From the NCBI RefSeq assembly GCF_000421765.1, contig NZ_ATXQ01000002.1, forward strand, positions 186,001 to 250,000: 64,000 nucleotides of DNA, given 5' to 3'. Numbering within the stretch: position 1 is the stretch's first letter; every line of letters starts with the position of its first letter. The translations under genes were made by a program, and so were the position numbers. Origin of the DNA: Denitrificimonas caeni DSM 24390. Lineage in GTDB: Bacteria; Pseudomonadota; Gammaproteobacteria; Pseudomonadales; Pseudomonadaceae. Shown here piece after piece: positions 1 to 20,612 of the stretch. The notes under the pieces were generated by a model. That model worked only from the letters and a program-made list of their open reading frames with translations, was not told the origin of the DNA and searched no databases.

Positions 1-542
1 GGAAAATAACCGCCCTTCACCCGTGGGCGATGGCCGCTATTTTTGCCTTCGGCTAAGGTTTTGGTTGCCCAAGCGCCTTCACCGGAGTGGATTTCAAAAC
101 CCACTTTGTTCATCGACTCTTCCCAGGTCACCGCATCAAACACAAAGAACTCTGGCTCTGGACCAAAATATGCGGTGTCAGCAATACCGGTGGAGCGCAG
201 ATACACTTCGGCACGCTGCGCAATCGAGCGTGGATCACGGTCATAGTTAGACAAGGTGGTCGGGTCTGCCACATCACAACGCACAATCACCGTCGGCACC
301 GTTGCAAACGGATCCATCACTGCAGTGGAGTCATCCGGCAACAACGTCATATCGGATGCTTCGATGCCTTTCCAGCCATGAATAGACGAGCCATCAAACA
401 TTCTGCCTTCTTCCAAGGCTTCTTCATCGAAGGTTTCTGATGGGAAAGTAATGTGATGCTCTTTACCTAAAGTATCGGTAAAACGTAGATCTACCCACTG
501 GGCATTGTGCTCTTTAATCAGTGATAGGGTCTTGGTAGACAT
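1..542 (-). CDS. glnA: Glutamine synthetase type I, N-terminal part (cut by window edge)
   Basis: Makes glutamine from glutamate and ammonia with ATP; it is the main ammonia-assimilating enzyme in the cytoplasm. Reading leftwards from the ATG at 542 gives about 180 residues beginning [20 protein letters not shown], with the GS beta-grasp motif [10 protein letters not shown] and the start of the catalytic domain at [11 protein letters not shown], which carries metal-ligand glutamates. The frame runs off the left edge, so roughly the first 40% of a normal 468-residue enzyme is visible. Upstream are a sigma-54 promoter and two NtrC-type sites, so nitrogen control is expected. Family assignment is very secure. 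Confidence 0.97.
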
Positions 543-604
543 GGCAAATGACTCCTCTAAGTCAAATTGATAACTGCAGTTCAATACTGCTCTATAGAGG
601 ATTT

Positions 605-620
605 AGCAAATTCCATGCCA
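605..620 (-). promoter_or_regulatory. Sigma-54 (RpoN) promoter of glnA
   Basis: On the minus strand the sequence reads TGGCATGGAATTTGCT. It has the -24 GG and -12 GC dinucleotides at the required 10-bp spacing and is close to the consensus TGGCAC-N5-TTGC. It lies about 63 bp before the glnA start codon. Seen directly; use by RpoN is inferred from the consensus and from the known control of glnA in enterics and pseudomonads. Confidence 0.85.
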
Positions 621-673
621 TAAGAAAAAGTCAGTGAATACAAGGGGAAACGTCAGTTAAGAGGGGTAGGAGC

Positions 674-688
674 GCACTAAAATAGTGC
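674..688. promoter_or_regulatory. NtrC-type enhancer site 1
   Basis: GCACTAAAATAGTGC is a perfect 15-bp palindrome (GCACTA-3-TAGTGC) matching the NtrC operator layout GCACCA-N3-TGGTGC. Its centre is about 70 bp upstream of the sigma-54 promoter and 31 bp (about three helical turns) from the centre of a second site. Confidence 0.75.
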
Positions 689-704
689 GAAAGCTTTATG
701 TTTG

Positions 705-719
705 GCACCAATCTGATGC
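705..719. promoter_or_regulatory. NtrC-type enhancer site 2
   Basis: GCACCAATCTGATGC matches the left half of the NtrC operator fully (GCACCA) and the right half (TGGTGC) with one mismatch. Together with the site at 674-688 it forms a paired enhancer with a 31-bp centre spacing, as expected for cooperative NtrC binding at glnA. Confidence 0.65.
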
Positions 720-921
720 GAACGCTTAGTTTTGAGTAAAGCAAAGCAGCTGATGCTCTACTAGGAGACAGCTTTACCCACAGACAGGGAGTCCGGCGAA
801 AAGATGAGCGCTTGATTGAAGCGGCATGCCAGCGATTTATTTAAATACATCACTGAAAACAGGACGTGCCGAGCAAGAGATTATGCGCAGAAGTAATGGC
901 GACAGAAGAGGCAGAAACAAA

Positions 922-953
922 AAAGCCTCAAACAAATTAATGTCTGAGGCTTT
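922..953 (-). terminator. Rho-independent terminator beside the tRNA-fMet fragment
   Basis: A 9-bp perfect stem (AAAGCCTCA / TGAGGCTTT) with a 14-nt loop. Read on the minus strand it is followed by a T-run (TTTTTT). It lies 11 bp beyond the tRNA 3' fragment, the same layout as the terminator beside the intact tRNA-fMet gene at 26914-26990. It was probably the original terminator of that tRNA gene before the island inserted (inference). Confidence 0.75.
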
Positions 954-964
954 AATGATGAATC

Positions 965-1004
965 TGGTTGCGGGAGCAGGATTTGAACCTACGACGGTTA
1001 TGAG
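965..1004 (-). other. Displaced 3' fragment of tRNA-fMet (left attachment site of the island)
   Basis: Positions 965-995 match the 3' end of the intact tRNA-fMet gene (26914-26944), including the terminal CCA, with one mismatch in 31. A 5-nt gap follows, and then GGTTATGAG from the anticodon region. The copy is in direct orientation to the intact gene, as expected for the far attachment site of an element that integrates at a tRNA 3' end. The gap and mismatch show that it is old or was altered after insertion. Confidence 0.75.
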
Positions 1005-1113
1005 ACGGATCATTTAGCGACACATTAAAAGTCTCTAAATGCTGTTAAACTGCTGTAATGTCTATTATAAGGCGTTTTTCAGCATATTGCTGTTATGGAA
1101 ATAGAGACAGTTA

Positions 1114-1184
1114 ATGACTAAAGATGCCACACAAAATTGGCACAGAACTTTTTCTTAAGTTGCGAATAAGTTGACCGTAAGGCT
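1114..1184 (+). pseudogene. 5' remnant of a second giant double tyrosine recombinase gene
   Basis: The first 70 or so bases after the ATG at 1114 align with the start of the 1826-codon recombinase gene at 4631. Both begin GTTA-ATGACTAAAGA, then share AATTGGCACAGAA and TTGACCGTAAGGCT. Similarity stops abruptly at about 1184, where unrelated sequence and then an IS66 remnant follow. The reading frame is already broken inside the match. The piece lies 110 bp from the left tRNA fragment, just as the intact gene lies 230 bp from the internal tRNA-like segment. Confidence 0.8.
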
Positions 1185-1557: not shown

Positions 1558-2238
1558 ATGCAAGATATTGGGGGATCCGTCAGTGGGCTGCTGGGGCTAA
1601 TTATTACCAGCTCGATACTCATTGCTGTACCTGGCCCAAGCATCATGCTTTTTATCGGGCAAGTTATAATGAAGGGCAGAAGTCATGCGTTGCGTGGCGT
1701 GATCGGCAATGCAATTGGCATGTTAAGCGTTGCGATACTTCTTTCTTTTGGACTTGGCCCTCTTATACTGAAATCCGATTTTGCTTTGCCTGCTATCCGA
1801 ATGCTCGGTGCGGTCGCCTTGCTGCTTATCGGCATAGGATATCTTGTAGCCTCAAAAGCGGCGAGTCCGGCTGCAACTGACCAGCCAGCAAAGAGAAAGT
1901 CACCGCTCACTGCGGGAGTGATAGTCGGTATAACCAACCCCAAGGCATTGATCATGTTCGGAACCATAGTTCCAAGCTTCCTCAGCGGCAATCTTGCGAG
2001 CCCCACGAACGTCCTGATCATGTACTCGATGATACCTATCCTATTGGGTATTGCGATCGATAGCGTGTGGGTTGTAGTTGCTCACAGCTTAAGCTCCCGC
2101 CTTTTTTCCAACGTAGACAGTGTCAGAATAGTAAACCGTATCGGAGGAGGCTTAATTATTCTGATGGCCCTTATATTGGCACGCGAAGCTGTTTCTGGGT
2201 TTTTGTCAATCAACCGGTGGCCGGCACCGTGGGCGTGA
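1558..2238 (+). CDS. LysE/RhtB-family amino-acid exporter
   Basis: Predicted inner-membrane translocator of the LysE/RhtB type, which exports amino acids or related small molecules. The 226 residues contain five to six hydrophobic segments and the family signature AVPGPSIMLFIGQVIMKGR near residue 25, with GITNPKALIMFG near residue 120. The ATG has a possible ribosome site (GAAGG) about 10 nt upstream. It stands alone between the IS66 remnant and an Lrp/LysE pair. Substrate unknown. Length and motifs fit an intact gene. Confidence 0.85.
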   Translation: MQDIGGSVSGLLGLIITSSILIAVPGPSIMLFIGQVIMKGRSHALRGVIGNAIGMLSVAILLSFGLGPLILKSDFALPAIRMLGAVALLLIGIGYLVASKAASPAATDQPAKRKSPLTAGVIVGITNPKALIMFGTIVPSFLSGNLASPTNVLIMYSMIPILLGIAIDSVWVVVAHSLSSRLFSNVDSVRIVNRIGGGLIILMALILAREAVSGFLSINRWPAPWA

Positions 2239-2372
2239 CCGAACTGAGGGAAGCTTTCGCTATTTTTTGAAAAACTGAGTGTATCGTGGCATAGAACCGG
2301 GCCGCTGTTGTTCCCTCCGGTAATGATCACGGGTATTCCGTATCTGAAGTTAATCGATTTCTGGTGGCCGGT

Positions 2373-2855
2373 TTACCCTGGCAAATGAATCAGTGGAAGT
2401 GGCGATTGGGGTTTGACAGTCTGGATCGCAAAGTTGCTTCGAATGTCCCGAACCCCTGGTAACTTGAGCAGCGTATTGGTCAAAAACTCCTTGTAGGCGC
2501 GAAGATCGGGCACCACAACCTGCAGCAAGAAATCCGACTCCCCGGACACCAGGTGAGCCATCACCACTTCCGGCATAACACTTACCGCCTCGCAAAAAGC
2601 CTCGGCTTCCTTTTCCTGATGACGCTCCATTTTGATGCCAACGAATACGGTTAGCCCCAAACCCACTTTTTCCTGATCCAGGATGGCACTGTAGCCCTTG
2701 ATCACTCCGGATTCTTCAAGCAGCCGCACCCTGCGTGAGCAAGGCGACGGGGACAGGTCTATTCCCTCGGCCAGATCCGTGTTGGGCGCGCGGCCATCCG
2801 TTTGCAGTGCCTCCAGAAGCTTTCGATCAAATCGGTCTAACTTATGAGTTGGCAT
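2373..2855 (-). CDS. Lrp/AsnC-family transcriptional regulator
   Basis: About 160 residues: an N-terminal helix-turn-helix (LDRFDRKLLEALQTDGR onward, with SPSPCSRRVRLLEESGVI as the recognition region) and a C-terminal AsnC ligand-binding domain. I start it at the ATG at 2855 (MPTHKLDRF) rather than at the ATG four codons earlier, because a GGAGG lies inside the longer start and is well placed for the second ATG. It is divergent from the LysE exporter at 2987, and an inverted repeat lies between them, so it probably controls that exporter in response to an amino acid. Confidence 0.9.
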   Translation of the reverse strand: MPTHKLDRFDRKLLEALQTDGRAPNTDLAEGIDLSPSPCSRRVRLLEESGVIKGYSAILDQEKVGLGLTVFVGIKMERHQEKEAEAFCEAVSVMPEVVMAHLVSGESDFLLQVVVPDLRAYKEFLTNTLLKLPGVRDIRSNFAIQTVKPQSPLPLIHLPG

Positions 2856-2869
2856 AAGAACCTCCATAT

Positions 2870-2908
2870 AAGAATAAAATTAGCGAATAGCACCAATTTT
2901 ATATTCTT
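2870..2908. promoter_or_regulatory. Inverted repeat between the Lrp regulator and the LysE exporter
   Basis: AAGAATAAAATT (2870-2881) and AATTTTATATTCTT (2895-2908) form an imperfect AT-rich inverted repeat close upstream of the regulator start. The position and AT-rich symmetry suit an Lrp/AsnC operator; binding is inferred. Confidence 0.5.
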
Positions 2909-2986
2909 TTGTGGCTGACAACGCAACCATACGCTAAACAACCAACGGTATAATCAAGGCTTTAATACCGACAAGAGACATGACCC

Positions 2987-3613
2987 ATGGCTGACCTTCT
3001 ACTGTTCTTGGCTGCGCTCGTTGCGATTTACCTTACGCCAGGACCGGACATGTTCCTGGTGCTCGGTACCTCCGTGAGCAGTGGCCCCAGAAACGCCATG
3101 GCCGTCGCTGTGGGCCTTGCCATTGCACGGGGCTGCCATGTCCTGCTGGCGGCGGTGGGGCTTGCAACTCTGTTTGCGACTCATCCCTGGACCTACCACA
3201 CAGTACGATTACTGGGCGCGGCCTATCTGCTCTACCTGGGTTGGCAATTCTTCCGGACAGGTCTTTCTCTCCCTGATGAACCCCAGTCAGCGGCAGGTAC
3301 TCTGCCATCCGTGGGATATCTGGTTGATTTCCAAAGAGGGCTGGCAACCAACCTGCTCAACCCCAAATCCCTGATCTTCTGCTCTGTACTGCTTCCGCAG
3401 TTCATCCACCCGGAACTCTCAGGCATTGCCGGGCAGTTCGCCATACTGGCACTGATTCTGGTGCTGACCGGGCTGGTCTTTGATTTTACTTACGCAGTTC
3501 TGGGGCGGGCACTCTCGGCAGCTACCAGCGGCAACGCCCGATACCACAGAGTCCAGAACAACCTCTTTGGCTGTCTGCTGACAGGCATCGGGCTGAAGGT
3601 TGCGTTGGGTTGA
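2987..3613 (+). CDS. LysE-family translocator
   Basis: A 208-residue inner-membrane exporter. The N-terminus has the LysE signature LTPGPDMFLVLGTSVSSG, and LNPKSLIFCSVLLPQFI near residue 125 is typical of the family. Five to six membrane segments are visible. It is transcribed divergently from the Lrp-type regulator, the common arrangement in which an Lrp protein senses the amino acid that the exporter removes. It looks intact. The substrate cannot be told from sequence alone. Confidence 0.9.
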   Translation: MADLLLFLAALVAIYLTPGPDMFLVLGTSVSSGPRNAMAVAVGLAIARGCHVLLAAVGLATLFATHPWTYHTVRLLGAAYLLYLGWQFFRTGLSLPDEPQSAAGTLPSVGYLVDFQRGLATNLLNPKSLIFCSVLLPQFIHPELSGIAGQFAILALILVLTGLVFDFTYAVLGRALSAATSGNARYHRVQNNLFGCLLTGIGLKVALG

Positions 3614-4231: not shown

Positions 4232-4374
4232 TGTGTACTCCTAAGTGAGCAGATAAAAGAGATCACACCTTATCCATTGAGCGCTGCATTGTATCCAGCC
4301 TTTTTGGCGACGAACTTTTAGGCGCGAGGTAACTCAGTCCAACCATTGGTAGTACTCAGCAAGCTGAACAAGAA

Positions 4375-4401
4375 TTGAACCGACGAACTTCGGGTTATAA
4401 G
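4375..4401 (-). other. Internal tRNA-fMet-like segment (degenerate attachment site)
   Basis: 24 of 27 positions match 26932-26958 of the intact tRNA-fMet gene, covering the T-loop, variable region and anticodon arm: TTGAACC, ACGA, CTTCGGGTTAT and AG are shared. The acceptor end is not preserved. It is in the same orientation as the two outer copies and 230 bp upstream of the giant recombinase start. It is best read as an old attachment site that separates two tandem elements (inference). Confidence 0.6.
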
Positions 4402-4630
4402 GGCAGTTCGTGTGAGGTGACTCTTGTTCGCCTTTAATCAACATCCTCTATAATTCAAATAGACATGATTATATAGTTGAGTAACCCGATAATGCCCGAC
4501 TTGGCTGGCAAGAATGATGGTTGTTTTCAAGCTTTTAGTTAACCAGAACATCTCACTGCTATAAAGAGTAGTTAATGCCTACTACAATACCGTTTTTATC
4601 TTTCTTTAAGCTGGTCAACAAGGGTCGTTA

Positions 4631-7600
4631 ATGACTAAAGACGTCGCGCAGAATTGGCACAGAAATATTTCTGCAGAAGCTAATGAGTTGACCGTAAGGC
4701 TGGGACAGCCATTCGCTGAACTTTCTTCGTGGGTTATCGAGCGAGAACTTGAGCTGCCGCTTGAAGTGTCATATCGCATTCTTGGTTTAGATCCATTCAC
4801 GGTCGCTATTGGAAACTTAGTCAAAGAACTCAGTCATCCTGAATCACAGTTAATAATTAGCGAGTGGGAAACAAATCCAATTGTAAATGAGCTAAAAAAA
4901 CTCACCCAAGCCGTAACTGCTGACACCAATATTTCTAGAAAATACGCTAGCATTGGTCATCGCGGTGGAGTTAATAAAAACCGTGATCAGTTCAGAAATT
5001 ACGCAAATAAAACTTTTCTGCTCACACTTATTACTAACCCGCTTTCAGATGTTACCGACGAGACTACTTATACAAACAGGCGACGATTACGGATCTGGTT
5101 ACTTGTTCAAGCAGCAAGTCGACTTTTGGATTTCGGCTATTCTGCAGATAGAGGTATTAGTATTGCCGCCCGATTTTTAGTCATTGATGCGGCTGATGCT
5201 AACTGGATATTAATTGACGACTTACTAAAAAAAGCAAAAAATCAGCTTGGCAGCACACCTAACACTTATGAGCGGTTCACCTCGGCCTTAGCTAACGCTT
5301 CACATATCATTAAGAATGACTCCTTCAAACCAGGCAAAACAGCGACGCAATTTCTCAACGCCATAAATAGTATTGCACATGGTGAGTGCAGAGAAATTGA
5401 AGCGAGTACTAATGATATTAAAGCGTTGCCACGCCTTACAGCTTTGCTACCAGCTGTCGTTAATCCTCTCCGTGGTAAGACCGACCCAGACGATGATGAT
5501 TTCACCATCATTGCACCCGGCGAACAGGATGAAGAGCCTTTATTTTATGTTACAGACATTGATCCGACTGATAGCGCTGCGCAGCAAGCAATCAGCTCCG
5601 GCAGTGTTTATATTCAAAATATGGAGTTATCTCACTATTTGCCGTGGTCTTGGGATCGCGTACTACCGTCCGAATCGCAAGCATTAGAAGAGTGGCTCAA
5701 CAAACAATTACGCTCAAGAGATATGGTAGATCGCACAGGCGCTGCTTTAGTGTGGCTGGCGATGCATCTATCTAGGTCATTGGTAATGGTTGAGCGACTG
5801 ACTATTGAGAGTAAGCTGAAAGACGAATGGAGTTTTAGTACTGATTTTGATGTTCTTAAACGTACATCTCCGCGGCGACGCAGCGCATGGAAACCTAATG
5901 AAACTACACGACAACAGGTTCATGCATTTCGAGATGATTTAATAGTCCTAGTACCGCAGCCTATTCAAGATATTTTACGAACTGCCGCGAGCAATGCAGT
6001 CGAGGCTCCTCAAATTATAAGAACGCTTTGGCAAGCGGTATCACAACAAAAACTAGACACATGGTTTAACGAGCAAGCCAGAGAGCACTTTCCTCGATTA
6101 ACGAGCGCCAAGCTTGCGAACTACCAGCCGCAACGATTGTTTGATGCAACGGGCGAGTTTAATTTTGCACGCCTATTAACATCTCACAGCAATAGCGCTC
6201 TGCCGGGCGCTTGCAGTTATGCAACTTGGGATATTAAGGCGATTGAAAAAGGGTTTCCGCTACCTGTTGTAGAATCATCACCAGGCGAGCCCGCCAGCAC
6301 TTACATTATAGGTAGCATGCTGATACCGCTTGAATCAGTGCTGCATGAAGAAGTCACGCGTTGTAATACAATCCTCAAACAGACCTCAGATAAAGGACTG
6401 ATTCAGTATCATAATGTACTAACACAGTATGTTGTAATGGCGTTGTATGCCGGGACTGGCGCACGCCCATTACGCGATCCATTTGAATCACTTCAGCACT
6501 TTTCTTTCCAGCATCGCTGCGTGTTTATCAACGATAAAAACGATGGAACCTTGCACACTGGCAGGGTGGTACCTTTACCTGCAGATCTAATCGCACTGCT
6601 AACTTACTATTTAGAGTTCTTAAAAAAGCTAAGTCTGCAGGTGGCCACCCACCGAGAAGAGTTGGCATTGCAGATATCTGCTCTGATTAATGGTCGCGAA
6701 GCGTCTATGCCGTTCTTTTTTCTATTAGATGGCAACCTACGCTGGCATTCAATGTCTGATGCAGTACAGCTTGAGTGCGCGCTATTTGAATGGACGCTAC
6801 CTGCCAACCTCTTTCGCCATCGTTATGCACAGCGCCTCCTTAAAGAAGGCATTGACCCCGAAGTTGTTGATGGTTTTATGGGGCACGGAGAGCGCGGCGC
6901 TGCAACGTACAGTGATTACTCTGTACGTTGCTGGGAAGATGATGCCAGACGTTATCAAAGCGCTATGGATAATATTTACAGTGAGCTGCCATTTGCGACT
7001 CCACTAGACCTTCAGGAGTTACCGCCGCTGCTTTGTTTGCCTGCAGAAAAAGTCAGCTATGTAGAGCCAAAATTGTTTGGCCAAAAAGACCGTGTACGCT
7101 ATAGATCGTTAAGACTTAAAAAAGCAATACGAGAAGCCCATGCTGATATTAGGCTATTTCTGAATTCTCGTGAAATTCAAAGTATCAGCGATGATGAGCT
7201 ACTGCTTCTAAGTAATCGTATGTTATTGCGAGAAAACCGTTTGCCGCACCCACAGGCAGCTATACGCTTTAACATCCTTGTAAAAACGTTGAAGCGTTCT
7301 GAGGCAAACAGTACTGCCGTAAAAGAAAACGAACAGCAGCCTGATATTACTGCGAGTAACGATATTGCTTCAAATGAAGCATCTTCAGGATTATCAAAAC
7401 GTCAGTTACTGAGCAAACGTTTTGTTGAGCTCCGTGACGAGCGTACACACATAACACCGCGCATTACAAATGCGCTTGAGCTTTATACGCAGCTTGAATC
7501 ATGGGCTGATGTAACTCGAAAAAACACATTAAAAACAGGTTTATCTATGCCTCGTGCCTTATGTATTGGCACAGTACTCGTGGCGATTGAGAAACGTCTT

Positions 7601-10111
7601 GGATATAAGCAACTATTGCTGGATGTAATGGCCGGACAGAATTTTCGTCTACTGCAAAATAAGCGCCACTACTTTTTGGAATATAGTGAAATTTTAGATC
7701 CTGAGGACTTTTCTGTAGCGGTGCAGCGTCATGAGTTGAGTTATAAAACCATAAGCCTGCTCGCTCATGGTATGCATAAAAGAAAAACCGTCGAGAAACT
7801 ACAGCCACATCAGATCAACGAATTTAAAGCGCTACTGGAAATTTATTCTAAAGATAATTCAGTAAGCTGTGCGCCAACAATGGAGGAATTGCTGAGTTGG
7901 CTGTGCGATATCATCAATCAGTCCAACCTGGTTCAGCTGCCAGGTATTGTTGCTGCCGCATTGAGCGAGCGAGCACCACCGACAAGCTCATCTTTACGCG
8001 ATTATGAACGCTTGCTAAACGGCAGAGCATTGGATCTCCCAATTGACACAACTGAAAACACTGAATGGCCAAATAGCACTCTGCCTAACGTGCGCGATAG
8101 AAACACTGACAAGCTTTCATTACAAGGGCAAGCTAAAGATTTATCAAAGAATATCGCTATTGTATTGCAAGGCTACAAAACTGCGAAAGCTAGTGAATGC
8201 GCTAAAAATCTCAGATCCATTTGTAATACATATAAAAATAAAGTTAGCTCAAGCATGATGCTGCTGGGTTACTGGATTGCTGATCTCACCGCCACAGGAA
8301 AATCTAAAAATCGTAAGGAAATAGATCCTTACGCGCTTAAATCTTTAACAACTTACTTCAGCAGTTTGTCACCAGTATTTCGTGAGTTGTTGTACGAAGT
8401 GGATCTTTTCGAGCTAGACAGTGAAGAAATCACTAATCTGTGCGTGCAGATGATTGATTACAAAATCACGTCCTCAAAACATGCAGATTATTTTGGCAAA
8501 CGACTTAAAGATTTTTTTCGCTGGGCTGCACGGTTTGGTGTAGCTTCGCCTGAGTGGGCAGATCTTGATCTGGGCAGTGGCTACCGCACTGTTAGCGCAG
8601 GTCTGATAAGTGAGGCTGAGTATCAGATATGCCAAACAAGAATTCTAACAGACAGTACATTGACTCAAGATGAGCAGTTGATATTGGGTTTCGTGCTACT
8701 TACGACTTACCGTTTTGGATTACGGCTAAATGAAGCTGTTTGTATGCTTCGTCGCGATTGGTGTCAGTACGAACAGCTCAGCTGGGTACTTGTGCAAGGC
8801 AATCAGTACCGCGCCTTAAAAAGCCAGGCGAGTCGTAGAGCAATTCCGCTGTTGTTCAAGCTTTCAGAAAACGAGCAGAATATTGTCGATCGAACGCTTG
8901 CTAGATACACAAGTATTGCTGGTGAAAAAGGTAATAGACCTATTCTGTGCGAAGCATCGAATCAAGAAAGCGGGCAGCCAGTATTAACACGCCTAGCGCC
9001 ACGAATTTCTCAAGCATTGATCCTATTAATGCGAAGCGTCACAGGAAACCCACAATCGGTACTGCATCATTGCCGACATAGTTTTTACAATCGTGTTGCT
9101 ACCGCATTATTTGGACTCAACAATCCGCTCGCAGATAGGTTAACAAGTACAGCAGAGCACGATCAAATTAGGCGCATTGTTTTAGGGCCAGTCAGTCATG
9201 TGTCTAGACGTGGCTCCATGGCATTGGCGCGGCTAATGGGCCATCGTTTTCCAAGCACTGGACTAAAAAACTATTTTCACCTTACCACTGAGTGGTCAAA
9301 TGAGCTGACACCTGTTACTCATTTACGAGCCCATAAGATTAAAAATGTTTTGCAGGTGTCTGAGCAATCAGTAGTGACTATAGAGCCTGCACAAAACATG
9401 GCCGAGGCGCTTACCTATTCCAAACCGACACTTTCAAGACTTCTGCAAGCGCTGCGTTTAGTATCTCTTGGCATGAGCTATGAAAGAGTTGGGGAGCTTA
9501 TTCAAATAGAGACGCAGCATATTTCTAGACTGCAAAGTATTTTTGATCTGACAAATACCCGCATGAGGTTTAGCTCAGCAGTCGACAAAAACCTCAAACT
9601 AAAGGGCAAGGATTGTCCAAATGCATTACTCGAGTCATTGACTGATAGTGCATGGCAAAGGCTGTTGCATCGTGCGGATGAGCTAGGTGACAATGTCACA
9701 GTTCCTATGAACGCTAATCTAGCAAACCTGCTTAAAGACCTACCTTATATAGTCAGTCCAAATCGGCATATTTTGATGGAGCAGCCAGAGCATTTTGAGC
9801 TAGTTCAGCATGTTGTAGCGCTATTTGACGTTCCGCTAAAGCAATATAAAATCATTGTAAAGGAGGGGCGGCATAGTGTCCTAGAACGTTGGGCCTCAGT
9901 GGACTTAAATGTCGTAACTGAGGTTGAGGCTGGTATAAAGCTCGACGGTTTTACGATATTTTTACCTGAGCGTAACAGCCACTACCAGATCAAAGACTAC
10001 GCTGGGGTTGTGCTTTCACGCTCAGCAACAGGTTTTATTCGCAATTCATTCGATCTAGTTATTGCGGTTCTAACTATTGGTTTTTTGATTCATCTTGAAA
10101 CTGGCTTTTGA
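4631..10111 (+). CDS. Giant protein with two tyrosine-recombinase domains
   Basis: An 1826-residue protein with two catalytic domains of the phage-integrase type. Domain 1 (about 590-770) has the box-I arginine in TGARP (R612), FRH (R729) and GHGERG (H752) with a tyrosine at 760 or 763; Asn726 sits where the box-II histidine normally is. Domain 2 (about 1350-1555) is complete: R1365 in FGLRLNEA, H1479-x-x-R1482, H1538 in MGHRF and Y1548. The N-terminal 500 residues match no family I recognise. Tyrosine recombinases usually have 300-450 residues and one domain. The nearby tRNA-like segment and the 5' remnant of a paralogue at 1114 suggest that it moves an element at tRNA-fMet. Confidence 0.85.
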   Translation: MTKDVAQNWHRNISAEANELTVRLGQPFAELSSWVIERELELPLEVSYRILGLDPFTVAIGNLVKELSHPESQLIISEWETNPIVNELKKLTQAVTADTNISRKYASIGHRGGVNKNRDQFRNYANKTFLLTLITNPLSDVTDETTYTNRRRLRIWLLVQAASRLLDFGYSADRGISIAARFLVIDAADANWILIDDLLKKAKNQLGSTPNTYERFTSALANASHIIKNDSFKPGKTATQFLNAINSIAHGECREIEASTNDIKALPRLTALLPAVVNPLRGKTDPDDDDFTIIAPGEQDEEPLFYVTDIDPTDSAAQQAISSGSVYIQNMELSHYLPWSWDRVLPSESQALEEWLNKQLRSRDMVDRTGAALVWLAMHLSRSLVMVERLTIESKLKDEWSFSTDFDVLKRTSPRRRSAWKPNETTRQQVHAFRDDLIVLVPQPIQDILRTAASNAVEAPQIIRTLWQAVSQQKLDTWFNEQAREHFPRLTSAKLANYQPQRLFDATGEFNFARLLTSHSNSALPGACSYATWDIKAIEKGFPLPVVESSPGEPASTYIIGSMLIPLESVLHEEVTRCNTILKQTSDKGLIQYHNVLTQYVVMALYAGTGARPLRDPFESLQHFSFQHRCVFINDKNDGTLHTGRVVPLPADLIALLTYYLEFLKKLSLQVATHREELALQISALINGREASMPFFFLLDGNLRWHSMSDAVQLECALFEWTLPANLFRHRYAQRLLKEGIDPEVVDGFMGHGERGAATYSDYSVRCWEDDARRYQSAMDNIYSELPFATPLDLQELPPLLCLPAEKVSYVEPKLFGQKDRVRYRSLRLKKAIREAHADIRLFLNSREIQSISDDELLLLSNRMLLRENRLPHPQAAIRFNILVKTLKRSEANSTAVKENEQQPDITASNDIASNEASSGLSKRQLLSKRFVELRDERTHITPRITNALELYTQLESWADVTRKNTLKTGLSMPRALCIGTVLVAIEKRLGYKQLLLDVMAGQNFRLLQNKRHYFLEYSEILDPEDFSVAVQRHELSYKTISLLAHGMHKRKTVEKLQPHQINEFKALLEIYSKDNSVSCAPTMEELLSWLCDIINQSNLVQLPGIVAAALSERAPPTSSSLRDYERLLNGRALDLPIDTTENTEWPNSTLPNVRDRNTDKLSLQGQAKDLSKNIAIVLQGYKTAKASECAKNLRSICNTYKNKVSSSMMLLGYWIADLTATGKSKNRKEIDPYALKSLTTYFSSLSPVFRELLYEVDLFELDSEEITNLCVQMIDYKITSSKHADYFGKRLKDFFRWAARFGVASPEWADLDLGSGYRTVSAGLISEAEYQICQTRILTDSTLTQDEQLILGFVLLTTYRFGLRLNEAVCMLRRDWCQYEQLSWVLVQGNQYRALKSQASRRAIPLLFKLSENEQNIVDRTLARYTSIAGEKGNRPILCEASNQESGQPVLTRLAPRISQALILLMRSVTGNPQSVLHHCRHSFYNRVATALFGLNNPLADRLTSTAEHDQIRRIVLGPVSHVSRRGSMALARLMGHRFPSTGLKNYFHLTTEWSNELTPVTHLRAHKIKNVLQVSEQSVVTIEPAQNMAEALTYSKPTLSRLLQALRLVSLGMSYERVGELIQIETQHISRLQSIFDLTNTRMRFSSAVDKNLKLKGKDCPNALLESLTDSAWQRLLHRADELGDNVTVPMNANLANLLKDLPYIVSPNRHILMEQPEHFELVQHVVALFDVPLKQYKIIVKEGRHSVLERWASVDLNVVTEVEAGIKLDGFTIFLPERNSHYQIKDYAGVVLSRSATGFIRNSFDLVIAVLTIGFLIHLETGF

Positions 10112-10120: not shown

Positions 10121-10999
10121 CTAATCAGCTAGTTCCAACTTAAACATATCAAAGTCTTCCAGGCTGCTTTGAAGAATATGTTTGATATAAGAACATATTT
10201 TACCCTTATCATTCCTTTCTTCACGTATTACAACCCTAACCAGCGGATTATCGCTACTATAAGCAGCTGCAGCAATTTTAAGATAACTCTCTTTATCAGC
10301 TATAAAAGTTTTCGCCGTACCATTTACTATGTTGTCAGTGGCTCCGACTATTTTCAGAAAAATCAGTTTTTCTGAACCTTTGACACCGTCAGAATGTGCG
10401 AAAAAAATCACATCATCCGCAAGTTTACTATTTTGGGGTACAGGATTTTTGAACGTCCCCTGGATTGGAATCGTAGTTTTTTCCTCTCCGGGGATTACGC
10501 ATACAAACGGTTTGCAAATGGACTTACCTGGAAATTTATTAATAAATTTCGAGGTGTGATCGTCGATAAAATCACTCTTTTCAGACGTGAAAAAGTCTTT
10601 TCTATCTTTTCTATCAGAGCTTTTTGTAACGAAAATATCACCGTGATCTGTTAGCATATCTTCAATAAATTTTTTCACAACTGCGTACAGCTCGGTTTTA
10701 ATATTTTCATTGATATCTTTAGATGACTCAAACTCAGCTAGAATTAAATGAATTAGGGGGACATCTGCACAGTTTTCGGTACTAACAATACTGTCAAAAC
10801 GAATAGTTATATTATTGTTAGGATAATACTCATCAATATAACTCGTAATGAGATTGATAGCTTGCGTTGAAACTGCCTCAAGATCAGAGTTTTGAGTTAG
10901 TTTGCTATTTATTCGGAAAGTAGTATCTGCTATGTGCGTTAGCACATTGTCTGTAACACGAAATTTAGCTAGAACTATTGTATTTTTAGAAGATATCAT
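10121..10999 (-). CDS. Hypothetical protein, convergent with the giant recombinase
   Basis: A 292-residue, AT-rich, acidic soluble protein beginning MISSKNTIVLAKFRV. It has no signal peptide, membrane segment or motif I can name. Its stop is 9 bp from the stop of the giant recombinase, and this tight convergent packing suggests they travel together as cargo and mover. The AT-rich codon use differs from the restriction-like operon next door. Function unknown. Confidence 0.7.
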   Translation of the reverse strand: MISSKNTIVLAKFRVTDNVLTHIADTTFRINSKLTQNSDLEAVSTQAINLITSYIDEYYPNNNITIRFDSIVSTENCADVPLIHLILAEFESSKDINENIKTELYAVVKKFIEDMLTDHGDIFVTKSSDRKDRKDFFTSEKSDFIDDHTSKFINKFPGKSICKPFVCVIPGEEKTTIPIQGTFKNPVPQNSKLADDVIFFAHSDGVKGSEKLIFLKIVGATDNIVNGTAKTFIADKESYLKIAAAAYSSDNPLVRVVIREERNDKGKICSYIKHILQSSLEDFDMFKLELAD

Positions 11000-11436: not shown

Positions 11437-12741
11437 CTATGCCAAACCAACCTTTCGTACCAGCCTTCCCGTGGTGTTATCCATCCGGTACTTGACGATA
11501 CTACCGTCAATAATGCGCCTAGCAGCCTCCATGGCATCTTCTAAAGAAACAGAGAACCATTCATTCGGATGGTAGCTTTTACCGTCCCGACCAACCAGCG
11601 TCATTCTCAAGCGTTGCGCATATAAGAAGCCATGGATGAGTGATTCAAACTTATTTGGATTCAAGTTGTAACACTCCATTGAAGCAAGAATTTTCACTGG
11701 GGCTTCAAGAAACGCCGTATCACGCTCAGCGTTTTTGGTGCGCTCTTCAACTGTCTGCTCGGTATAGCCGATTTTGATTAGATTCGGTATTGCGCGTAGA
11801 GCTGGGTTATCGCTCATCGTGGTGACAAAGTAGATTTGGCCAGCTCGCTTGTCTTTGTGGCTAACATTATTAAAAGCATCTACTACCGAGTCTGCGTCTT
11901 GGATAATGCGTCTGCTGGTTTTGTCTTTATACATACGGCGGCCAAAAGAGCGCAGCAAGTGGTTTGACTCAGTACCGTTTTCAAAAATGATTCGCAACCT
12001 TGGATTAGGGCGGCCAAAACTGTCTTCTTTATACTCGCCGACCTCATCAACCAAGCAAAGGACACCCTCCATGATAAACGCATCACCCTCACGTATCTGT
12101 AGCTCTTTTTGAAAGTGAACGTGCTGTAACTCACCTGATTTTAGCTTGGCCTGAATGTCTTTAAAGATACTTTCAAACTTGTAAAAATCAGCGCAGTGGG
12201 TTTGCTGCGCGATTTCATCAGGCATATCTCTATCAGATGTTAATGGCACATGCGTCATATCAAACAGGCTTTGATCACCCTGATCCAGCTGCGCAAATAT
12301 ATCGCTACTAAAAATATCATCGAGACTGGTCACTTCTTCAGCGTGGGCTGATTGTTCTGCTTCGCAAGACTCAACCGTACCGTTATCACCTGACTCAATC
12401 GCGTCTAGGGCAAAAGACTCACTGATGCTGTGTGTTGCTGGTACGTTATTGGTTAGTAGGCTATGCCGGTCGTATGAACTCAATACTGGGTACATGTCCG
12501 TATTATCGATATAGCTTTGCAGTCTGCGAGCGAGTAGTTTCTCTGCCAGCTCACCTTCAGCACTTGGTTGACGCCCCTCTTTGTCGATAAAGGCATTCAC
12601 CTCTTCGAACTTAGACACCTCAAGCGAGGCACTGCCACTGACATGCTTGGCTTTAACATTTAAAAGCCCAAACTCATCTGGGCCATTAAAAATATCATCT
12701 AGCGATAACTTCTTACGCTCACCATGCTTAATCGACAGCAT
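11437..12741 (-). CDS. GIY-YIG nuclease-family protein (T5orf172/MUG113 type)
   Basis: A 434-residue protein. The C-terminal third is a GIY-YIG-like nuclease domain of the T5orf172/MUG113 kind: IYFVTT (about 303-308), LIKIGYT (about 321-327), an arginine in ERTKNAERD and the glutamate in FESLIHGFL as likely metal ligand. The first 200 residues are unlike any family I know and contain LSLDDIF and TSLDDIF repeats. The ATG at 12741 is chosen because GGGAGG lies 5 nt before it. It is the third gene of an operon with a helicase and a methyltransferase, and may supply the cutting activity (inference). Confidence 0.85.
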   Translation of the reverse strand: MLSIKHGERKKLSLDDIFNGPDEFGLLNVKAKHVSGSASLEVSKFEEVNAFIDKEGRQPSAEGELAEKLLARRLQSYIDNTDMYPVLSSYDRHSLLTNNVPATHSISESFALDAIESGDNGTVESCEAEQSAHAEEVTSLDDIFSSDIFAQLDQGDQSLFDMTHVPLTSDRDMPDEIAQQTHCADFYKFESIFKDIQAKLKSGELQHVHFQKELQIREGDAFIMEGVLCLVDEVGEYKEDSFGRPNPRLRIIFENGTESNHLLRSFGRRMYKDKTSRRIIQDADSVVDAFNNVSHKDKRAGQIYFVTTMSDNPALRAIPNLIKIGYTEQTVEERTKNAERDTAFLEAPVKILASMECYNLNPNKFESLIHGFLYAQRLRMTLVGRDGKSYHPNEWFSVSLEDAMEAARRIIDGSIVKYRMDNTTGRLVRKVGLA

Positions 12742-12751
12742 AGACACCTCC

Positions 12752-14794
12752 CTATGATTGCTGAACCTGCGCCTTACGTTCTTGTGCTTTACGTTTGATA
12801 TATGCCAGCGCTTCAGCTAAACGCAGCTCATGGGCGTCGCTGGAGGACGCTGACGGCTCACGTTTCTTTTCCTTGATAAAGTCGTTGATGCGCGGCCAAA
12901 GAATCACCGCCTCTTCCTCAGTCATATTGGTACGCATACCGATAACCGTGTCCTGAATGGTTTTCAAAACAGCGGTTGTCACAGACTTAGAAAGGATTTC
13001 ATAAGCACCCTGAAATGGATTGACCTCACGTATCAAGTCGATATTCAGGTGTTCAATATTCACAAATTTATTGCCAATCAGCACAAACTTGCGGTTTTTC
13101 TTTGGCTCGTCACCAGATGCAGAAGGCCCACCTGTTATTGGCGTTTTATAATCAGCTGGCTCGGCTGCAATCTCAACACCAGCCGGTAAATCAGCCTCAT
13201 CAAATAGGCCACCTGTAGATTGGATGACCATAGACGTATAAACCGCATCGGCAACCGTTTGCACTTCGCTTGCATCCATGTCGGGATATAGCTTTTCTAT
13301 CACCTTGGGGATAGCAACCTCCGCAAGCACTTCAGTGTCATCATTACCTGTAATGGCTGGCGCTATCACTTCAGGTGTTTGCAGAATGGCAGCCTTGATG
13401 TTGTCCATGTTCTCAAGCGCTTTAACAACCTTGTCTGATACCGGCGCAGAGCTGTCTTCAATAATGACTGTACCCGGCGCAACCATTTCACCCAGCTTCA
13501 TCTTGGAGCGCGGCTTAAAGTTAATCGCTGGCGCTAGCACCTGTTCCATCAATAGCGACACAGTAATGGCTTTAAGCATGTTGTTGACTGAAACTTTTAC
13601 ATCGTCATCTTCGGCATCAGGTTGGGCAATTAAGTTAGTAAACTGCGCATGCGTTTTGCCCTCAGAGTCACGGGTAGCTCGACCAATAATCTGCACGATC
13701 TCTGTCAGTGACGACCGGTAACCAATCGTTAGAACATGCTCGCACCAAGGCCAGTCAAAGCCTTCTTTTGCCATGCCTAGCGCAATGATAATGTCCATGT
13801 CTTCGGCTTTGTTGATACCGCGCAGATAGTTTTGTATCTCAACGCGCATTGGGTTGTCATCAACAAGATCCGCGACTTTTAAGAGTCTGCCGTCCTTAGT
13901 GCGCACGGTAATGATGCCGGTTTGCATATCCTTCTCAACCACATCGCCAATCACATCGAGAATATGATCCACTTCGGAATATTTGTCCTTGGTGGACTCG
14001 ACCGAGTTGACGTTAGGGATATGGATGATGGTTTTCTTGCTGGTATCCAGCACTTCATGCAACGCATCAAGGTAACGACCAGTGTAGAAGTGGTAGCCAA
14101 TACCGAGGGACTTTAAGTGCTGGTAGCCATTTAACTGCTCATAGTACGAGTAAGTGACTTGGGTGAACTGTTCTTCATCTTCTGGCAGCAGAATAGGTAC
14201 GGCGTCGCCACGGAAATATGAACCAGTCATGGCCACAATATGTGCATTAGAGCCTTTCATCACGCCGTCAATTAACTCGCCAAGACGGTTGTCACCCTCG
14301 GCAGAGGTGTGGTGAAACTCATCAATAGCCAGTAGTGTATTGTTAAAGTCTGACGGCTGTAATTTCTGGTAGGCAAAGCGCAACGTTGCGTGGGTACAAA
14401 CAATGATACTGGCGTGCGGGTCAGACAGAAAACGAATAAACGCATCCACCTTCTTGCCTTCGCCACCGGGAATACACAGGTTATAGCTCGGCTGAATAAC
14501 CCAGTCGGCAAAGAAGCCGCCATCTGTCAGCTTAGTGTCTTTAAACGAGCCACCAATCGACATTTCAGGTACGGCAACAATGACCTTTTTCAACCCTTGT
14601 TTGTGGAGCTTATCTAGCCCTAAAAACATCAGCGCACGCGACTTACCTGAGGCTGGTGGCGCTTTAAGTAGTAAGTACTGGGCATCACGTGCCTCATAAG
14701 CACGCGCTTGCATTTCACGCATACCCATCGCATTTAGGTTTGAGCTTTTGCCGGTTTGTTTGTAATTAACGGTCAACAATTCATCCATGCTCAC
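12752..14794 (-). CDS. SF2 DEAD/DEAH-type helicase of the methyltransferase operon
   Basis: A 680-residue ATP-dependent helicase or translocase. Visible motifs are Walker A APPASGKS (45-52), motif II DEFH (158-161), motif III MTGS (189-192) and motif VI QIIGRATR (368-375). The C-terminal 250 residues hold no motif I recognise and end in a charged, coiled-coil-like tail. The GTG start overlaps the stop of the methyltransferase (GTGA), and the nuclease gene begins 10 bp after its stop, so the three are translated as one unit. Such a motor between a DNA methylase and a nuclease resembles the restriction subunits of type I and III systems. Confidence 0.9.
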   Translation of the reverse strand: MSMDELLTVNYKQTGKSSNLNAMGMREMQARAYEARDAQYLLLKAPPASGKSRALMFLGLDKLHKQGLKKVIVAVPEMSIGGSFKDTKLTDGGFFADWVIQPSYNLCIPGGEGKKVDAFIRFLSDPHASIIVCTHATLRFAYQKLQPSDFNNTLLAIDEFHHTSAEGDNRLGELIDGVMKGSNAHIVAMTGSYFRGDAVPILLPEDEEQFTQVTYSYYEQLNGYQHLKSLGIGYHFYTGRYLDALHEVLDTSKKTIIHIPNVNSVESTKDKYSEVDHILDVIGDVVEKDMQTGIITVRTKDGRLLKVADLVDDNPMRVEIQNYLRGINKAEDMDIIIALGMAKEGFDWPWCEHVLTIGYRSSLTEIVQIIGRATRDSEGKTHAQFTNLIAQPDAEDDDVKVSVNNMLKAITVSLLMEQVLAPAINFKPRSKMKLGEMVAPGTVIIEDSSAPVSDKVVKALENMDNIKAAILQTPEVIAPAITGNDDTEVLAEVAIPKVIEKLYPDMDASEVQTVADAVYTSMVIQSTGGLFDEADLPAGVEIAAEPADYKTPITGGPSASGDEPKKNRKFVLIGNKFVNIEHLNIDLIREVNPFQGAYEILSKSVTTAVLKTIQDTVIGMRTNMTEEEAVILWPRINDFIKEKKREPSASSSDAHELRLAEALAYIKRKAQERKAQVQQS

Positions 14795-17529
14795 TTACTT
14801 CCTTTGATTGTTTTTTTGGCTGGCGCTTTACTTTGCTCTGCAGCAATCAGTTTTTCATAACGTGCAAATAGATGCTCAAGGCGCTCTGAAGCATCCCTAA
14901 AGGGTCTATCGCGGTAGAGTTTCTCAACAGCTCGGTCTAAGGCTTTGTGGGCGTCTAGCAACGGTTGAGGCATTTTGTCGGGATCATACAAATCAGCAAG
15001 CGTTTTACTAGGGTAGTCTTCTCGAGTTAGTAAAATTTCCTCAGCAAGCGCTTCAATTTTTTTTCGCTGTTGATCTGATGTTTCTGGCCAAGGAAATGAG
15101 TTGTAAACTAATGCGGCTGAGTAACGATAATGCTCTCGCATCCTACCGCAAGTAAGGCGCATCCAATCCATATGCATTGTTGATGACAATATTGAAAACT
15201 CGAACAAGCCTCCACCAGGCACTATTTGTAAAAGGTCTGTGCAAACCGTATCAGAACTGACTATTCCTAAAGGCAAATAGTAGCGGCGCCTTGTTGTCAC
15301 CCTAGGAACTACTATGTAAGAGCCGTTACGAGGATGATTATCTTGCCAGAAAACATGTGGCGTTTTAGACAGAGCTTGAGTTTGTTTGTTGGTACTTTGC
15401 AATCGCATTTCTGATACAAGTTCAAGCCGCTTTCTAATGATAGGAGACATGCTTTCTATATCATCAGATGTTGCCTCTGCAAGCCACAGTACCCAGCGGT
15501 CTTTGCTTTTCAAAAATTCATCAGCACCTATAACTTTTTTAATCCATCGAGCACTTGCTGAATCTTTAGCTAAAAGCTCATCTTTTTGCTCAGTATTAAA
15601 GAATAGATGACCACCATCAGTAGGCTGACTGCCTCTAACCATTTTAACTTGGCTAGAGAGAGGCCTTGTACGGCTCTCAATAGCTAGAGCACTACCTTCA
15701 ATTAGATATGGACTAATATTGCTTACCGTATGACAAACCCAAGATTCTCCATCTGGCTTGAATAGTTTTTTTCCAGTATTTTTATAACCAAGCCCTATAA
15801 TTGCAACATGAACACCTGCATTTTTTTTAGCATTATTTGTCCAATCAAAAGTTTGCCAAGCAAAGCTTATGCTTAAGCCTAAATCAAATATTTTTGGCCA
15901 AATTAAGGATACCTGCTCACCTTGAGTTATAGAGTTGGTCGATACAAAGGCAAGACTGTTTTTCGTATCTTTAATATACAAAGCACCAAGCCAAAACCAT
16001 GAAGACACAAGATCTAAGTCTTTGTATTTTTTGAAGTCAGCGAAGACTAAATCCATGCCTTTATTTTGCGAAGCTGTCCTAGAGTTATAGCCCGCAAACG
16101 GCGGATTACCACACACATAAACCTCATAAACTTCGCCCTGTTTGTTTTCTTTTGGACAAATCTCTTTCCAATCAATGTGTAGGCTGTTATCGCATACGAT
16201 ATGCCCAGAGTCACGCAAGGGTAGCGCCGCATCGGCATATCCAAACTTAGCTTTAAACGCTGTATTCATCTGGTGCTCAGCCAACCATAAAGACAAGATC
16301 GCAACCTCATGGGCAAAGTCGTCGATCTCAATGCCGAAAAACTGCGATAGGCGTATACCTGAGTAATACATGACTGATTGCGCACCTGTTGCGTTCAAGG
16401 CATCAATGATTTCCATTTCCAGCTTGCGCAGCTCTTTATAAGCAATAATCAAAAAATTGCCCGAGCCACACGCTGGATCAAATACTCTTAGGTTCTGTAA
16501 GCGCAGCAGCAACGCCTTGAGCTTGCGCTCGTTACCCTGTGATTTCTCTAGCTCGCCATACAGCTCATCCAAAAACAAAGGCTGTATTACCTTCATGATA
16601 TTAGAAACAGAGGTGTAGTGCTGCCCTAGGTTGCCGCGCTGCTCTTCATCAATGACCGCTTGGAACATCGAGCCGAAAATATCAGGGTTGATTTGTGACC
16701 AATCCAGTGAGCCGCAATCAAGCAGTATTCGCCTAGCTTTAGCACCGAACTCTGGCACCGGCTCATCAACCGCAAACAAACCACCGTTAACAAAGGGAAA
16801 CGCCTGAAAGTGTGATGGCATGGCTTTGCGTGCTGGCGCATTATTATCTAGGTTCAATACCGTAAATAAGTCAGTGAAAAACTGATCAACATCTGAGCCA
16901 TCGGCTTTGGTATATAGCTGAAGAGCTGAAGTCATCTGTGCTTCGGCAAAGATACCGGTATCTTCAGCATAAAAGCAGAACAGTAGGCGCGTTAAAAACA
17001 CATTGAGCGCGTGAATGTCTTCCGCTTTAGTAAGATCATTGCGCTCACGAATCATGTCAAAGAGCTGGCCCATCTTCTCTGAGGCTTTAAGGTCGGCTGG
17101 GTGCTCTGAGTACATCACCGCCTTTTCATAACCAGCCAAAGGTAAGAAGAAGCCATAGTCTTTGTGTAACTCATCAATCGCCACCTCAAGGCGCTCGTCT
17201 GCTTTTAAGTCATAGGCAACAAGCGTTTTAAAGTCGGTAGCAATAACAAAACGAATATCATTACGGGTGACAGCATCCAATGTTTTTAACGCATCAGCAG
17301 CCTCGCCAACATCAGCACCTTGGCTAACGTGCTTAAAGTAGAGCTTCTTTTTAACGCCAATGTCCGAGCCTTCACCCACATTGCGGTCATCATCGCTGTT
17401 ACGCAGCCGTGTGACGGTGCTTTTAGGGAAACCATAGGCATCCATAAACTGATAGATGAACTCATCAGGATTGAGTTTCAAGCAAGCCTGCTCTAATAAA
17501 TTTAAAATTGTGCCCTGATTAACAGCCAT
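14791..17529 (-). CDS. Large DNA adenine methyltransferase of type IIG/MmeI-like build
   Basis: A 912-residue class I SAM-dependent N6-adenine methyltransferase. Motif I is DPACGSGNFL (351-360), followed by FFGIEIDDFAHEVA and the catalytic motif IV NPPF (475-478). GQHYTS (302-307) is typical of type I/IIG methylases, and the region after about 620 is probably the target-recognition domain. The N-terminal segment resembles the nuclease domain of MmeI-like enzymes, but where an E-x-K would be expected I read YFK (64-66), so its own nuclease may be dead. AAGGA precedes the ATG. First gene of a three-gene operon. Confidence 0.9.
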   Translation of the reverse strand: MAVNQGTILNLLEQACLKLNPDEFIYQFMDAYGFPKSTVTRLRNSDDDRNVGEGSDIGVKKKLYFKHVSQGADVGEAADALKTLDAVTRNDIRFVIATDFKTLVAYDLKADERLEVAIDELHKDYGFFLPLAGYEKAVMYSEHPADLKASEKMGQLFDMIRERNDLTKAEDIHALNVFLTRLLFCFYAEDTGIFAEAQMTSALQLYTKADGSDVDQFFTDLFTVLNLDNNAPARKAMPSHFQAFPFVNGGLFAVDEPVPEFGAKARRILLDCGSLDWSQINPDIFGSMFQAVIDEEQRGNLGQHYTSVSNIMKVIQPLFLDELYGELEKSQGNERKLKALLLRLQNLRVFDPACGSGNFLIIAYKELRKLEMEIIDALNATGAQSVMYYSGIRLSQFFGIEIDDFAHEVAILSLWLAEHQMNTAFKAKFGYADAALPLRDSGHIVCDNSLHIDWKEICPKENKQGEVYEVYVCGNPPFAGYNSRTASQNKGMDLVFADFKKYKDLDLVSSWFWLGALYIKDTKNSLAFVSTNSITQGEQVSLIWPKIFDLGLSISFAWQTFDWTNNAKKNAGVHVAIIGLGYKNTGKKLFKPDGESWVCHTVSNISPYLIEGSALAIESRTRPLSSQVKMVRGSQPTDGGHLFFNTEQKDELLAKDSASARWIKKVIGADEFLKSKDRWVLWLAEATSDDIESMSPIIRKRLELVSEMRLQSTNKQTQALSKTPHVFWQDNHPRNGSYIVVPRVTTRRRYYLPLGIVSSDTVCTDLLQIVPGGGLFEFSILSSTMHMDWMRLTCGRMREHYRYSAALVYNSFPWPETSDQQRKKIEALAEEILLTREDYPSKTLADLYDPDKMPQPLLDAHKALDRAVEKLYRDRPFRDASERLEHLFARYEKLIAAEQSKAPAKKTIKGSK

Positions 17530-17885: not shown

Positions 17886-17996
17886 GAACCTGTACGAATT
17901 GCGCGATGGTTGGGTTAACTTAGTGAAACGCCCTGTGCGGAGCAGTATGCAGGGTGTTGTGGGGACTGAGGGCTAGAAACCCTCGGCTACCCGATT
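17886..17996 (+). mobile_element. Group II intron, 3'-end fragment only
   Basis: The last part of a bacterial group II intron: a few codons of the maturase C-terminus (LYELRDGW), then domain V (AACGCCCTGTGCGG ... CAGGGTGTTGT) and domain VI ending CTACCCGATT at 17996. It matches the 3' end of the copy at 20613-21483 closely. No 5' portion or reverse transcriptase is attached. It directly abuts the stop codon of the helicase-nuclease gene. Confidence 0.85.
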
Positions 17997-17999
17997 GTT

Positions 18000-20528: not shown

Positions 20529-20612
20529 TTGCTCCCTATCGATAGAAATATAACGCCCGCAACACTAGATAATTTGGAGTGAAACGGAAAATTGGACTAA
20601 GTGTTTACGCTT

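Follow-up and report, generated by a model that had tools for sequence, protein, structure and literature searches.

A giant protein encoded at positions 4,631–10,111 (+) of the window, by which we mean the whole 64,000-nucleotide stretch of DNA analysed here, is on balance probably the fused A–B part of a system of three recombinases that integrates a defence island. The protein joins two tyrosine recombinase (YR) regions, A and B, in one chain, and an ordinary tyrosine integrase, C, is encoded near the right end of the island; this layout of A–B plus C suggests a multi-part integration machine of a kind so far undescribed. Among the readings weighed below, that of three recombinases is the best supported, because the catalytic columns of A and B are conserved and both the A catalytic region (A-cat) and B match a profile of C integrases; because A–B architectures are collinear, fused and split forms fall on one side of a tree branch and dN/dS is low; and because C co-occurs with A–B, lies downstream of and facing B, tRNA sequence marks both island ends and an empty site is found in two genomes. 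More tentatively, these elements may form a new class of island with a recombination module at each end: the tRNA end would have a canonical integrase and the opposite one a pseudo-recombinase/recombinase pair, made as a single giant chain in one lineage, with only one half of each site-bound pair exchanging strands.

The gene is one intact open reading frame of 1,826 codons with no internal stop. Its product can be divided, with approximate limits, into an N-terminal part of A (residues 1–500), a catalytic-like region of A (about 501–800) and a B part (about 1001–1826) whose catalytic region spans about 1251–1560. Region A carries R612, K636, N726, R729 and H752, followed by two candidate nucleophiles, Y760 and Y763, 8 and 11 residues after H752; region B carries R1365, K1397, H1479, R1482, H1538 and Y1548. 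The A set with Y760 as its tyrosine and the whole B set are invariant in a seven-row alignment of the window protein and six full-length fused homologues that are 35–71% identical to it, namely those of Denitrificimonas caeni (L034) and, from the order-wide search, G148, G192, G239 and two in G291. One more fused homologue, in G293, is 52% identical to the window protein. The tyrosine of integrase C falls on Y763 of A in a profile alignment. General models detect the regions faintly: Pfam Phage_integrase matches the fused protein at 722–753 alone (E 4.7e-4, under the curated cut-off), and NCBIfam XerD (622–753, E 6e-4) and XerC (1261–1395, E 0.029) match far below theirs. AF2 models of A (440–860) and B (1175–1600), built from two-row alignments, have pLDDT values of 38.2 and 37.6. 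Compared with D. caeni, the window gene has a dN/dS of 0.14 in the A N-terminal part, 0.12 in A-cat, 0.17 in the linker and 0.20 in the C-terminal part of B; dS is saturated in the N-terminal and catalytic parts of B, and also in most segments of two other pairs tried. The sequence-only reading had described an 1,826-residue protein with two YR regions in one chain and an asparagine at the box-II histidine position of the first. The intact frame and the conserved columns uphold the former, and the asparagine, correctly placed at N726, is a family trait found in 41 of 44 loci. By sequence, then, both halves are real, the second with a canonical YR active site and the first with Asn at box II.

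Directly 3′ of the fused gene lies a convergent gene of 292 aa (10,121–10,999, −), for which no Pfam or PADLOC match was found. Other loci of the window's clade (clade I) have frames of 274–299 aa in its place, with similarity detected only in D. caeni, G293, G192 and one of the G291 loci (G291b); in the broken G272 locus the frame at this place is an unrelated IS21 helper.

Profiles of the A half and the B half, run over the open reading frames of the window and the fetched loci, gave 44 loci, the window included, in which an A catalytic region could be paired with B; loci with only a partial A or B (G072, G155 on contig 15, G272, G300b, G559, G705 and G783) were left out, and near-copies such as G813/G821, G817/G855 and G297/G301 are counted. 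A and B are adjacent genes in 29 of these loci (A 726–859 aa, B 732–1,144 aa), fully fused in 11 (1,755–1,916 aa) and split inside A in 4, where A-cat and B share a frame of 1,117–1,350 aa; the order of A and B is the same in all three architectures. In a tree of A-cat plus B, a branch has all fused and split forms on one of its sides; its support of 89/74 is below the tool's star mark and not strong, and several rows are long-branched or of odd composition. Of 200 bootstrap trees, 90% group the separate-gene rows together, and the tree holds three architecture changes versus 13.7 in shuffles. Because fused and split forms share one side of the branch and architecture has changed so few times, the A–B link is old and kept, and no frameshift accident. 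The claim that the protein belongs to a repeated family and is not a chance fusion is thus sustained, by this branch and by the six full-length fused homologues, which align end to end; homologues betraying a frameshift fusion of two ordinary integrase genes, which the earlier reading had named as its refutation, were not what was found, the separate relatives being large proteins themselves. Conservation of the two-domain form holds only in part: 11 of 44 loci are fused, but the relatives are mostly (29 of 44) adjacent genes.

The window's own genome carries two further, unfused A/B pairs, one on contig C7 and one elsewhere on contig C2. In the C7 pair (L035, 15,861–18,179 and 12,444–15,857) the two genes are in the same frame, with just a stop and one codon before the next ATG separating A from the start of B, and the 5′ half of a tRNA-Arg (41 nt) lies at 18,984–19,024, upstream of the small open reading frame of this pair. 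Such a frame, of 130–440 aa and ending beside the start of A, is present in 29 of the 44 loci, 26 of them among the 29 with separate genes. These small frames fall into several groups in which no mutual similarity was detected; that of D. caeni is a fragment of an MBL gene and does not count as a partner.

With the own genome included throughout, A/B were found in 26 of 293 genomes of the order (E 1e-3) and 7 of 12 of the genus (E 1e-8), the fused profile matched 14 of 398 genomes of the family and 4 of 369 of the class (E 1e-20), and the B profile matched 21 of 398 of the phylum. Among plasmid records, 13 of 72,556 match, none covering 80% of the query; no A/B was found in 50,697 phage records, and none of 85 pattern matches in viral contigs is A/B. 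One B-profile match, in a genome that shares only the class (G1252:C1:2669022-2670629), lies within an 1,872-aa open frame and is possibly a further fused form.

The two regions differ in their catalytic residues across the family. Domain B carries the catalytic set of the tyrosine recombinase superfamily: R, K, R, H and Y are present in 44 of 44 loci, with His (41) or Tyr (3) at box II, and PF00589 scores above its cut-off in both unfused B proteins scanned. Region A keeps R, K, R and H in all 44 loci and has Asn at box II in 41, the other three having Trp, Asp and Tyr. Its tyrosine is at the position of Y760 in 11 loci and of Y763 in 17, at either in 19 and at neither in 25. Because 25 of 44 loci have no tyrosine at either candidate position, A is predicted to be often a pseudo-recombinase across the family. 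That one domain is structural and the other catalytic, as the sequence-only reading proposed, agrees with the family-wide pattern (A without Tyr in 25 of 44, B with Tyr in all), but this support does not extend to the window protein itself: Y760 is kept in 8 of 8 clade-I proteins, so a dead A is a poor description there.

Profile comparisons place A and B beside ordinary integrases. Against a profile of 18 C integrases, A-cat matches with probability 89.7 (E 1.9e-6), the box I, NxxRH, GH and YS stretches being in register, and B with probability 96.2 (E 2.7e-9). A and B compared directly gave nothing in a full-length profile–profile alignment and a probability of only 8 between the two catalytic regions. 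A profile search of the PDB with A returned two chains up to E 1, the best at 0.011 with its best stretch out of register, and is not counted as support.

Integrase C, which the sequence-only reading left unmentioned, is an ordinary 417-aa protein with Arm-DNA-bind_2, SAM-like and Phage_integrase domains (24,847–26,100, −), adjoined by an HD/TraI_2-like protein (23,907–24,860, −) that resembles proteins in seven other regions. Relatives of C number 17 in the fetched A/B regions, are 47–64% identical and accompany all three architectures. Among the 293 genomes of the order, own genome included, A/B are present in 26 and C in 27, and both in 21, against an expectation of 2.4 (Fisher p 3e-22; A/B at E 1e-3 and C at E 1e-90, with the same genome handles in both searches); this p value is a guide only, since the genomes are related and the thresholds differ. 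The 5 of 26 A/B genomes without C are mirrored by 6 of 27 C genomes without an A/B match in the order-wide search, one of which, G101, has B by a more sensitive profile; in another genome, G232, C lies beside a tRNA-Arg and that search found no A/B.

C lies inside the fetched flank of 17 of the 44 loci, the two G291 loci sharing one C, and in 12 of these 17 it is on the downstream side of B and oriented towards it (p 1e-4 under an assumed chance of 1 in 4; 10 of 15, p 8e-4, after two near-copy pairs are collapsed); in the other 5 it is on another side or in another orientation. By genome coordinates, 11 of 15 same-contig pairings of A/B with C are downstream and facing and 4 are not; these pairings were picked by hand and include the already counted window and G291a as well as, for G097 and G221, a second C gene. 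The distance between C and A/B is at most 6.1 kb in 15 of 44 loci, 11 of them unfused. No C was found in the fetched flank of 27 of the 44 loci, some flanks being short; in G192 and G239, C is farther off.

The island itself spans from a 3′ fragment of tRNA-fMet (965–1,004, −) to an intact, initiator-like tRNA-Met(CAT) gene (26,913–26,989, −), which lies 813 bp upstream of C and forms the right end; a dinB-like (IMS) gene follows at 27,123. The fragment and three flanking bases (962–1,004) form an attL-like left junction, which lacks 5 nt (CTTCG) relative to the intact tRNA. In G300 and G298, sequence like window 885–1,004 runs straight into an intact tRNA and the right flank, as expected of an empty site; window 1–884 has no match there. 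At 996–1,004 (+) the junction contains GGTTATGAG, the first 9 nt of clade-I elements, which is common to the tRNA anticodon arm. The paralogue remnant claimed at 1,114 is real: positions 1,110–1,184 (+), beginning 106 bp right of the tRNA-fMet fragment, are 83% identical to 4,627–4,701 at the start of the A–B gene and represent the 5′ end of another fused A–B gene. The intact gene at 4,631 has no GGTTATGAG at the usual distance, which counts against the three-recombinase reading; a degenerate tRNA-fMet-like stretch (4,363–4,401, −), ending in GGTTATAAG (4,393–4,401), is a candidate for the decayed left end of its element. Between the remnant and this stretch, at 1,558–3,613, we noted by eye two LysE-type transporter-like genes and an Lrp-like regulator, which may be cargo from an older element.

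In clade I, nine left ends begin with GGTTATGAG, 117–196 bp before the A–B start codon: those of the window remnant, D. caeni, G293, G148, G291a, G291b, G192, G239 and G272. Only G293 keeps a tRNA flank with CTTCG, and the other eight are short of some or all of the flank: CTTCG is missing at the element boundary in three diverged genomes (the window, at 995/996, G272 and G239), four ends have lost more than CTTCG, and at that of D. caeni no tRNA sequence is present. The idea of a cut falling exactly at GGTTATGAG in every left junction was considered and rejected, as a tRNA fragment abuts a truncated A frame in the broken G155 locus. An MBL gene as the target in D. caeni was likewise rejected: relatives have no GGTTATGAG there, and the rest of the gene was not found from contig position 404,001 to the end (37 kb). 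At two further places, L101 18,245 and L103 8,946, an intact tRNA-fMet flank with GGTTATGAG is followed by sequence unlike clade I, with no A/B matches nearby; other elements may use the same core.

Of the 20 C genes examined, 10 have an intact tRNA gene 0.7–2 kb upstream, on the same strand (fMet in the window, G192, G239, G155, G221 and G106; Gly in G129; Arg in G232 and G000:C13; Val in G101), and no tRNA was found in the fetched stretch for the other 10. Four contigs combine a tRNA 3′ fragment at the A–B end with an intact tRNA at the C end: the window, G239 and G192 for tRNA-fMet, the G192 fragment being only 18 nt, and G129, an unfused locus, for tRNA-Gly. The G129 fragment has the expected orientation and scores 42, to be read against a background of at most 29 for the tRNA-Gly query and a score of 44 that the tRNA-Arg query reached against one unrelated locus. 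G155 has a tRNA-fMet fragment at its broken A–B end, on another contig than its C; G106 and G221 have tRNA-fMet at the C end and no fragment at the A–B end; and the tRNA-fMet predicted to the right of C in G291b was not found. The expectation of a tRNA-like sequence is thus borne out at the end of the window's element but fails as a rule for all loci. In the 16 regions with C, the 3 kb preceding A were compared with the 3 kb preceding C for direct repeats; nothing exceeded cross-pair controls save in G221, where the stretches overlap; in this comparison the G855 C flank is 1 base long and the 3 kb of the window stop short of the left junction.

How the parts might work together can be sketched. 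In the circular form, attP would lie between C and A–B, both of them oriented outwards from it. C would recognise the tRNA site through its arm-binding domain, and each att core would be held by one A–B unit, in which B cuts and A occupies the partner half-site; strand exchange would therefore be asymmetric and directional. Fusion would give A and B a fixed 1:1 ratio at a single DNA site, and A–B and C would act together. In the window's clade, where the tyrosine of A is kept, A may also cut.

The main rival to this three-recombinase reading, one we hold to be unlikely yet still of real weight, is that integration and excision of the island at the tRNA need only C, and that A–B serves another purpose on it, such as setting the direction, keeping the island stable, or working on circular or transferring DNA. 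C has the standard build of an integrase, in 10 of 20 cases examined an intact tRNA gene (fMet, Gly, Arg or Val) has its 3′ end 0.7–2 kb away from it, and some genomes carry it with no A/B found; the presence of C in 21 of 26 A/B genomes, the conserved active site of B and the R-K-R-H residues of A point instead to recombination by A–B in the same element. The three-recombinase reading has to accommodate loci and genomes with A/B or C alone, the other placements of C (5 of 17), the failed prediction in G291b, the 10 of 20 C genes without a tRNA and the retention of Y760 in all eight clade-I proteins, all of which count against it.

A stack of two independent elements on one shared tRNA, one moved by A–B and the other by C, appears decidedly improbable: although the window has a remnant A–B start at 1,110 ahead of the intact one and G291 has two A–B genes 35.7 kb apart, C is found within 6.1 kb of A/B in 15 of 44 loci and co-occurs in most A/B genomes (21 of 26). 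That a frameshift or point mutation accidentally fused two ordinary integrase genes in this genome has next to no probability left. The C7 pair of the same genome, where one stop and one further codon intervene, speaks for such a fusion, but the six full-length fused homologues (35–71% identity) together with G293, spread over three genera as labelled by the tool, refute it, and the one-sided branch and low dN/dS also stand against it.

Work on strand-biased circularizing integrative elements (SEs) and on GInt islands has indicated that some islands require several YR-like proteins, one of them with an incomplete catalytic site (PMC10214605, PMC5385486). The comparison that follows draws on those portions of PMC10214605, PMC5385486, PMC5991714, PMC3414803, PMC12629846, PMC12715929 and PMC12039261 that were accessible, and its statements about these systems extend as far as those portions. 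SEs encode IntA, Tfp, IntB and Srap (PMC10214605, PMC5991714), and the likeness is close in kind: an ordinary YR with an arm domain, a large YR with the full motif, a YR-fold protein without catalytic residues and a small protein, in Gammaproteobacteria and at specific sites. Further marks of SEs are a 6-bp footprint, the lack of an empty site and a strand-biased circle. By contrast, the SE genes form one operon at one end, whereas C mostly lies beyond B and at a distance from it; A and B are of greater size and occur fused in some loci; R-K-N-R-H is retained in A; and tRNA-gene sites are not described for SEs in the accessible portions of PMC10214605 and PMC5991714. Membership of A/B among SEs was rejected on sequence, neither A and Tfp nor B and IntB being detectably similar: with both Tfp proteins (SE-6283 and SE-6945) the A profile gives negative bit scores, and the B profile reaches IntA at 2e-6 in a search of 8 sequences, a generic signal, and IntB at best at 0.019. 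SE proteins searched against 702 open reading frames gave a best blastp E of 0.043 and no phmmer row. A/B represent another lineage, without detectable sequence similarity to SEs, that has a similar set of parts and joins dead-type and live-type units in one chain.

GInt islands, which carry varied cargo, have a four-gene ginABCD operon at one (5′) end (PMC5385486) and share with A/B islands three integrase-like proteins, one with an incomplete active site, and a small protein. As far as the source portions describe them, GinC is without the first Arg, which A keeps in 44 of 44 loci, and the targets are an ABC-transporter gene and ssb (PMC5385486). The operon layout also differs, with the small frame, A and B in a row and C elsewhere, mostly beyond B and in opposite orientation; A/B are set apart from GInt by gene layout and description alone. 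Tn554 and its relatives (TnpA, TnpB, TnpC) likewise have adjacent large and ordinary YRs and a small protein, but are described in the accessible portion of PMC10214605 with the catalytic motif in both YRs and no third, dead one, and are set apart by this description only. The RIT archetype comprises, by the same portion, three adjacent YRs of 315–410 aa, all with the catalytic Tyr (PMC10214605). A/B do not conform to it: in the 29 separate loci A has 726–859 aa and B 732–1,144 aa, and A has no Tyr at 760 or 763 in 25 of 44 loci.

The components of the gamma-mobile trio are GmtX, GmtY and GmtZ. Its mobile islands, as presented in the accessible portions of PMC12039261 and PMC12715929, resemble those studied here in being rich in defence genes. 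This candidate was rejected: the NCBIfam GmtY model (441 positions) gave no match at E 1 to the window protein or to the A, B and fused proteins scanned. C itself belongs to the ordinary Arm-DNA-bind_2 integrases and is often beside a tRNA gene. Such integrases act as a single enzyme, and the new part here is the A–B partner. Literature searches, covering titles and abstract openings with subscription journals mostly outside their scope, found no description of a fused two-domain YR of this kind.

If these elements do form a new class of island, the fused chain would be a natural covalent heterodimer, showing why such elements retain a dead recombinase. The lineage would also take genes for defence into tRNA loci, and with the fused form the question of stoichiometry and geometry becomes directly testable. 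Natural comparisons are at hand in the fused, split and separate versions and in clades with and without Tyr in A, and the A/B family can serve as a marker for finding such islands.

The cargo of the window's island includes a T5orf172/MUG113 protein, a DEAD helicase and an MmeI-type IIG restriction-methylase (11,437–17,529, −), and a helicase-like protein of the candidate defence family PDC-S28 (18,000–20,528, −). Direct repeats of 300 bp (97%) and of 46 and 35 bp are present in 20,610–22,337 and 17,919–21,483, and a group II intron maturase-domain fragment lies at 20,974–21,303. A GIY-YIG protein, a DEAD helicase and a DNA methyltransferase are encoded beside SE-6945 on pSEA1 (L180, 41,563–47,540), in an annotated order that is the same, by gene type alone, as that of window 11,437–17,529.
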